IMG/VR virus record: IMGVR_UViG_3300032893_000205 | Coordinates: 1 to 33,983 of that record | Reading direction: 5' to 3' (one strand) | Source of the DNA: a virus | DNA: 33,983 nt | Part shown: piece after piece, positions 4,485 through 4,605 of the stretch | Position numbering within the stretch: position 1 is the stretch's first letter | Layout of the letters: each line of letters opens with the position of its first letter | The notes under the pieces: model-generated | Told to the model about the DNA's origin: nothing | What the model saw: only the letters and a program-made list of their open reading frames with translations | The model's database searches: none | Program-made: the position numbers and the translations under genes

Positions 4485-4605
4485 GTGGCGTAGTAATCAG
4501 TTTCATCGCCTGTTAAGCGAGAGGTCGCAGGTTCGAATCCTGCCGGGTCGAAAGACACGTAGCTCAGTTGGGAGAGCGCTTACATAGCTGGTTATGCCTG
4601 TTCCC
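4485..4605 (+). ncRNA. yrlA-like: YrlA-like Y RNA with permuted tRNA mimic, module 3
   Basis: Flank GTGGCGTAG (4485-4493), stem 4494-4500 (TAATCAG) with 4588-4594 (CTGGTTA; fourth position U.G), five-base spacer and GTTCCC (4600-4605) repeat the module plan. The loop holds a tRNA mimic in permuted order. An anticodon-like stem pairs 4511-4517 with 4579-4584, with U4513 bulged. Then come an AGGTC variable loop (4522-4526) and a canonical T arm, GCAGG-TTCGAAT-CCTGC (4527-4543). An acceptor-like stub, 4544-4549 with 4554-4559, carries one G.A mismatch and a GAAA tetraloop. Last is a D arm, GCTC-AGTTGGGA-GAGC (4562-4577). Known bacterial YrlA RNAs carry a tRNA-like domain above the Ro60-binding stem, so the adjacent Ro60 gene fits. 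Confidence 0.85.

Follow-up and report, generated by a model that had tools for sequence, protein, structure and literature searches.

In red algae and archaea, circularly permuted tRNA genes yield working tRNAs, and such genes are among the closest described counterparts of the locus reported here. Another is YrlA, described as a Ro60-bound RNA in which Dus and TruB modify the D and T loops, and as taking part in a YrlA/Rsr/PNPase complex (PMC8394870). A Salmonella study suggests that the tRNA-like domain of YrlA might competitively inhibit an anticodon nuclease (PMC7790460). Here we report that the 5' leader of a phage Ro60 gene carries three tandem Y-RNA modules, the third of which contains a permuted tRNA domain. 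Comparison with related sequences indicates, with high confidence, that this third module has the structure of a complete, circularly permuted tRNA body set within a YrlA-like RNA.

The window, that is, the whole stretch of DNA analysed, is a 33,983-base phage record with P22-type portal, coat and terminase genes; it also encodes, at 8487–8792, a small protein that matches the phage co-chaperonin GroES family phrog_3188 (E 5.1e-7). The product of its Ro60 gene matches PF05731 (TROVE; 52.1 bits, E 8.2e-14, cut-off 23) and phrog_850 (E 2.4e-41), together with vWA matches of 22.6 and 19.8 bits, both under their cut-offs. A structure model of this product (mean pLDDT 88.1) matches solved Ro60 structures, best 9kop and 9l5y, then 2i91, 1yvp and 2nvo among others. 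The likeness to Ro60 of Thermus phage phiLo (PDB 9l5y) is one of fold (E 1.5e-16, structure) and of sequence (E 4.7e-24), with an identity of 22–24% in the structural match. The TROVE and vWA domains that define a Ro60/TROVE protein are both present in the window. The features of the gene and its leader are as follows (position numbers below 100 refer to tRNA numbering).

4311–4338, plus strand: possible but weak sigma-70-type promoter of the array, TAGACT-16-TATACT, 9/12
4344–4406, plus strand: Y-RNA-like module 1, with box GTGGTGAAG, motif GTTCATC and 3' box TTGTTCCC (direct repeat family D1; box/motif scan; approximate ends)
4412–4475, plus strand: Y-RNA-like module 2, boxes as in module 1 (direct repeat family D1 and box/motif scan; approximate ends)
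4471–4620, plus strand: module 3, the whole predicted Y-RNA with its permuted tRNA domain (inverted repeat I1; pair list; Y helices over 119 units)
4485–4493, plus strand: 5' Ro60-type box GTGGCGTAG of module 3 (repeat analysis; box/motif scan)
4501–4507, plus strand: conserved motif TTTCATC (in most relatives TTACTTC), the final C of which is position 29
4507–4521, plus strand: anticodon arm, comprising 29–31 (4507–4509), loop CUGUUAA (4510–4516) and 39–43 (4517–4521)
4522–4526, plus strand: variable loop AGGTC
4527–4543, plus strand: T arm, GCAGG/CCTGC, with loop TTCGAAT
4544–4559, plus strand: acceptor-like stem, GAAA-closed, with 66–72 at 4544–4550 and 1–7 at 4553–4559
4562–4577, plus strand: D arm, with loop AGTTGGGA
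4578–4580, plus strand: position 26 and positions 27–28 (pairing with 43–42, at 4521 and 4520), closing the tRNA body
4597–4606, plus strand: 3' Ro60-type box CCTGTTCCCC of module 3 (repeat family D4)
4651–5961, plus strand: Ro60/TROVE-vWA protein, 436 aa (PF05731, phrog_850, structure model)

The direct repeats of the array, with boxes GTGGYGWAG and KTTCATC, begin at 4348, 4416 and 4485, and one promoter-like site (4311–4338) was found against 0.4 expected in shuffles of the region. Modules 1 and 2 have neither a T arm nor a D arm, and in these two minimal modules the box/motif-module scan detected no 7-nt loop closed by a hairpin stem of 3 bp or more. Module 3 is closed by an outer stem (4471–4476/4615–4620 and 4482–4485/4605–4608) and an inner stem (4494–4500/4588–4594).

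Within module 3, the T arm, acceptor stem, GAAA cap, D arm and AGGTC loop named in the initial annotation were all recovered at the same positions, in the permuted order that it had proposed, the T arm preceding the D arm. The acceptor-like stem pairs 4544–4549 with 4554–4559, with one G·A mismatch (4546·4557); it is capped by GAAA at 4550–4553 and, as had been observed, is without a 3' CCA, and U8-A9 follow at 4560–4561. The suggested kinship with YrlA is borne out by the Rfam family RF02553, which aligns with 4520–4580 over model positions 24–84 (38.3 bits, E 1.1e-6, below the gathering score of 69), and the Ro60-type (Y) stem adjoins a gene identified as Ro60 by PF05731 and by structure match. 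Only the joining stem, described as anticodon-like, has to be redrawn: the description holds for 27–28 with 42–43 (4579–4580/4520–4521), but the remainder, 29–31/39–41 (4507–4509/4517–4519), closes a 7-nt loop that had been overlooked. To the order, cap, YrlA kinship and Y stem of that interpretation there must accordingly be added a complete split anticodon arm with its loop, CUGUUAA, which reads as anticodon GUU (U33, G34, U35, U36, A37, A38).

When both strands of the window were searched under strict criteria for a T arm, an acceptor and a D arm in this order, only this unit was returned; 100 dinucleotide shuffles of the window yielded eight, or 0.08 per window. The probability of a chance origin is lower than that figure, since the anticodon loop, the split stem and the adjacency to Ro60 lie outside the count and each reduces it. 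An energy model predicts ready formation of the T arm, D arm and Y stems and gives the anticodon hairpin a probability of 0.59 and the 27:43 pair one of 0.0; the fold of 4471–4620 as a whole (z = -0.95, with 36 of 200 shuffles as good) does not distinguish module 3 by thermodynamics alone.

A linear tRNA at 4479–4551, where the tRNA family RF00005 scores 24.5 bits (under 29) and where named phages annotate tRNAs, was considered and rejected, ARAGORN making no native-order call in the window. The window contains no linear cloverleaf with its 3' end at the acceptor, as a tRNA gene has; it does contain a tRNA 3' half ahead of the 5' half, as a permuted tRNA gene has. Elsewhere, annotated tRNAs overlap permuted Y-RNA units upstream of Ro60 in Xanthomonas phage 10KY502B (tRNA-Thr, 2831–2898), CcrColossus (tRNA-Gln, 2131–2198), and Gurke and Kikimora (tRNA-Ser, 2769–2843; positions counted within each locus), and these annotations are probably mis-called parts of mimics.

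For comparison, Ro60 relatives were collected by protein pattern (11 loci from 13 matches) and by profile (80 of 340 kept); among 90 phage Ro60 records, stretches of 17 were analysed, including FuzzBuster and Rey, which came from a DNA search, and 80 of 248 Ro60 loci were kept from bacterial and archaeal genomes. These last loci belong mostly to Acidobacteria, Bradyrhizobium and other Alphaproteobacteria, with some from Desulfobacterota and others. Of the resulting 185 loci (window included, five duplicates dropped), 115 hold 161 units upstream of Ro60; for Mycobacterium phage Rey the entire stretch was used rather than its upstream part. The Rey unit, at 3011, lies within a tRNA gene cluster and has a joint stem of 5/5, as in YrlA, and no Ro60 gene is annotated in the stretch shown. 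The discovery set comprised 127 units less than 90% alike (64 phage, 63 bacterial), and a second set of 55 loci yielded 31 new units once relatives of the first set had been removed, giving 158 non-redundant units beside phage and bacterial Ro60 genes. A survey of distribution across genomes with covariance model R1 was abandoned, as it matched 149 of 149 bacterial genomes, apparently through tandem real tRNA genes.

Modules bearing box and motif number 478 upstream of Ro60, in 159 of the 185 loci, against 55 in a similar length downstream, and Ro60 leaders are for this reason regarded as arrays. Both boxes are present in 119 of the 158 units, and the 39 in which one was missing were set aside. 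Among the 119, the inner Y helix reaches at least 6 bp in 67 (swapped strands: mean 27.0, maximum 37) and the outer Y helix is found in 86 (mean 34.2, maximum 47), so that both helices hold beyond chance. The Y boxes and the linkage make it very probable that module 3 is a Ro60 RNA, bound by the Ro60 protein encoded downstream. Among 294 minimal modules, a hairpin loop with U33, R37 and A38 occurs in 43 (shuffles: mean 2.5, maximum 7), but no claim is made for minimal modules as anticodon displays, because full units overlooked by the strict parser are counted among the 294.

The unit parser took no account of sequence upstream of the T stem, which was scanned separately. Hairpins there of at least 4/5 bp peak at a variable loop of five (V = 5) and a loop of seven, precisely the spacing of a tRNA, in 59 of 127 units (mononucleotide shuffles: mean 11.3, maximum 21), and these 59 keep U33 in 53, U36 in 41, A37 in 48 and A38 in 48. 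When V was set to 5 and the sole criteria were U33, a purine at 37 and A38, without selection on the stem, 61 of 127 units remained. In all 61 of these the joint pairs 27:43 and 28:42 can form (34.0 and 29.1 expected; six pair types each), while the hairpin pairs 30:40 and 31:39 form in 49 and 53 (26.4 and 25.5 expected), and position 29 pairs from either side (40 joint, 46 hairpin). The rival pairings show no clear excess in these loop-selected units: 27h and 28h, on the hairpin side, reach 37 and 42 (33.2 and 38.6 expected), and 30j and 31j, on the joint side, 16 and 32 (17.2 and 26.1). The pattern was replicated in 21 new loop-chosen units, with 27:43, 28:42 and 30:40 each in 20 and 31:39 in 21; of the rivals, 30j was seen in 2 and 27h in 17 (15.9 expected), but 28h in 14 (10.8 expected; reached in 34 of 2000 permutations), which is slightly more than expected and speaks against the split model.

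These counts reject, for loop-bearing units, both a full hairpin, with 27–31 all local, and a full joint stem as in YrlA. The covariation indicates instead that the anticodon stem is split, taking 27–28 from the strand after the D arm and 30–31 from the strand that precedes the loop. The complete five-pair split stem occurs in 72 of 127 units (swapped strands: mean 9.1, maximum 16), and compensatory changes are found in all five stem pairs, among stem-selected units and also without stem selection. For 43 full-split-stem units the split structure pairs 98.6% of cells, the joint 92.4% and the local 95.6%, percentages that run high because the units were selected for a full split stem.

The same counts bear on the possibility that such units arise by chance or where tRNA genes stand in tandem, so that the 3' half of one gene runs into the 5' half of its neighbour and looks permuted. 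Five tandem tRNA duplicates do show T-then-D order, and the matches of the unit covariance model to all 149 bacterial genomes are attributed to neighbouring real tRNA genes. In those duplicates, however, the stem pairs 5/5 both as hairpin and as joint stem, whereas 27–28 of the Ro60 units pair on the joint side only and the units are flanked by Y boxes and helices; ARAGORN finds no intact tRNA gene flanking the unit within the window. We regard this origin as having a negligible chance of being correct.

The loops themselves follow a rule. Across the 158 units, 82 have a U33/R37/A38 loop, and bases 36 and 37 are UA in 58, GG in 13, CA in 6, AA in 2, GA in 2 and UG in 1; in 79 of 82 loops a G at 36 is accompanied by G37 and any other base at 36 by A37, a figure equalled in none of 20,000 permutations. 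The rule is present separately in the phage, bacterial and test sets, and it mirrors the t6A37 and m1G37 classes of tRNAs. Among 85 real tRNAs from three genomes the counts are UA 31, CA 26, AA 12, GA 8 and GG 8, with G37 only beside G36. The 82 loops contain 27 different anticodons, Asn(GUU)-type loops being commonest. The nearest real isotype agrees with the anticodon in only 4 of 44 cases (label-permuted mean 3.7), which leaves the idea of isotype-specific tRNA copies unsupported; a unit is not a faithful copy of one tRNA, because its body does not track the amino acid of its anticodon.

One reading of these loops is that they are relics of an ancestral permuted tRNA, drifting slowly and with no present role. 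The mismatch of isotype between body and anticodon speaks for it, as does the prevalence of Asn(GUU)-type loops expected from shared descent; but drift sits poorly with a 36/37 rule that holds in all three data sets despite so many anticodons, and with compensatory changes at every stem pair, and we consider a relic unlikely. In Xanthomonas phage 10KY502B and at locus L015 (T-stem starts 2655 and 2620 within each locus), units combine a CUC anticodon loop and a variable loop of 4 nt with the Glu-like D arm GTCTAGTGGCTTAGGAC, and the body of the 10KY502B unit also scores nearest to real tRNA-Glu. In the permuted units of CcrColossus (2668) and loci L017 (2851) and L019 (2669) the variable arm is long and the D arm Leu-like (GCGGAANNGGTAGACGC type); they are apparently class II tRNA mimics and stand outside our counts owing to a 4-bp D-stem rule.

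Rewritten in tRNA order, all 72 full-split-stem units, which were selected by their stems, are called tRNAs by ARAGORN, that of the window as tRNA-Asn(gtt), against 16 of 72 in native order and 18–29 of 72 when halves of different units are combined (ten trials). This would be expected of usable tRNA genes, from which an endonuclease and an RtcB-type ligase would excise the Y stem and join 28 to 29, with the acceptor loop cut, leaving a working tRNA as the permuted tRNA genes of algae and archaea do. RtcB homologues do lie near Ro60, within the stretch covered, at 16 of the 80 bacterial loci. The acceptors point the other way: CCA follows position 73 in 7 of 127 units and G1-C72 occurs in 37, the spacing from 72 to 1 is 0–12 nt in 119 and none at all in 9, and the cap is GNRA in 45. 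Together with the isotype mismatch, this makes a usable tRNA gene very improbable. We give as little credence to the wider proposal that phages and bacteria possess, in their Ro60-linked units, circularly permuted tRNA genes of a class not recognised before. In such genes the Y stem would be removed intron-like from the anticodon stem, 28 and 29 would be joined, with RtcB acting wherever its gene adjoins that of Ro60, and the loop of the acceptor would be opened; if that were true, Ro60 would carry precursors of stress- or infection-specific tRNAs. At one bacterial locus, L183, an RtcB RNA ligase homologue (3906–5243) lies directly downstream of Ro60, in RNA-repair-type surroundings as at 15 other bacterial loci.

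At V = 5, 66 of the 127 discovery units have no U33/R37/A38 loop, and many of these are YrlA-like; in them 27 and 28 pair with the D side in 57 and 54 of 66, with no clear hairpin, which is the YrlA-like form. An anticodon-dependent function therefore cannot be general. Module 3 might serve in the ordinary YrlA role, tethering Ro60 to the exoribonuclease PNPase and steering the decay of structured RNA, its anticodon loop a non-reading cap. That loopless units also adjoin Ro60, that T arm, acceptor and D arm are common to Rfam YrlA and module 3, and that a YrlA/Rsr/PNPase complex has been described (PMC8394870) all favour such a role, but a mere cap leaves U33, A38 and the 36/37 rule across unrelated phages and bacteria unexplained, and we judge this account possible yet rather unlikely.

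The best overall explanation, to which we attach slightly less than an even chance, is that module 3 is a permuted tRNA mimic held by Ro60 and most likely a decoy. Transcription would start from the weak promoter-like site at 4311–4338. Sequence comparison places the permutation break in the 5' strand of the anticodon stem, between 28 and 29/30, where the two strands run out into the Y stem, and the RNA reads, in order, Y stem 5', 29–31, anticodon loop, 39–43, variable loop, T arm and GNRA-closed acceptor, then D arm, 26, 27–28 and Y stem 3'. The Ro60 protein encoded directly downstream would bind the Y stem. As the initial annotation proposed, the RNA may attract tRNA-modifying enzymes, as described for YrlA (PMC8394870), and may be stable against decay. 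Because its acceptor is closed, the mimic should be neither chargeable nor usable as a tRNA; held by Ro60, it would present enzymes with a tRNA that retains elbow and anticodon loop, engaging those that act on the tRNA body (TruB, Dus) as well as anticodon-loop readers (37-modifying enzymes, anticodon nucleases). In infection or stress such a decoy may protect real tRNAs.

The decoy function in particular is put forward tentatively, and we think it somewhat doubtful. A mimic with an anticodon loop would suit the role of anticodon-nuclease inhibitor better, and the RtcB homologues at 16 of 80 bacterial Ro60 loci fit tRNA damage; an RtcB homologue near phage Ro60 was found at only 1 of 159 loci in the stretch examined. 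This counts against the explanation as a whole, as do the mismatch of body and anticodon, the units that lack the loop, the probability of 0.0 for the 27:43 pair and the modest z-score of module 3. A whole tRNA, with the 36/37 rule kept and the acceptor closed, argues against a plain tether and for enzymes that read the anticodon.

Compared with known systems, module 3 resembles the red-algal and archaeal permuted tRNA genes in that the tRNA 3' half precedes the 5' half, and differs in its acceptor closed by a short loop, in having no CCA and in a break inside the anticodon stem. With YrlA it shares a stem beside a Ro60/Rsr gene and, on that stem, the permuted succession of T arm, capped acceptor and D arm. 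The Rfam consensus of YrlA, however, lacks an anticodon loop, and its joint stem (cgcc/ggcg) is continuous, whereas in module 3 the joint stem is predicted to comprise 27–28 only, 29–31 closing an anticodon loop; the Y boxes also differ (GTGGCGTAG/TGTTCCC in the window, GGCGAAUGCU/CUUGUCGCC in Rfam YrlA). No Rfam family reaches gathering in the window, nor does YrlA in the 20 relative loci searched. The window RNA is thus a YrlA-like variant, at 38.3 bits not a member by Rfam's own score, and the Rfam model at its threshold misses this Ro60-linked branch of RNAs. At an alphaproteobacterial locus with YrlA-type boxes (L372), one unit has a joint stem, the unit after it has a split arm whose loop is UUUUGGA, and a second locus also has a split arm; since both forms occur side by side at L372, the split arm reaches into YrlA proper.
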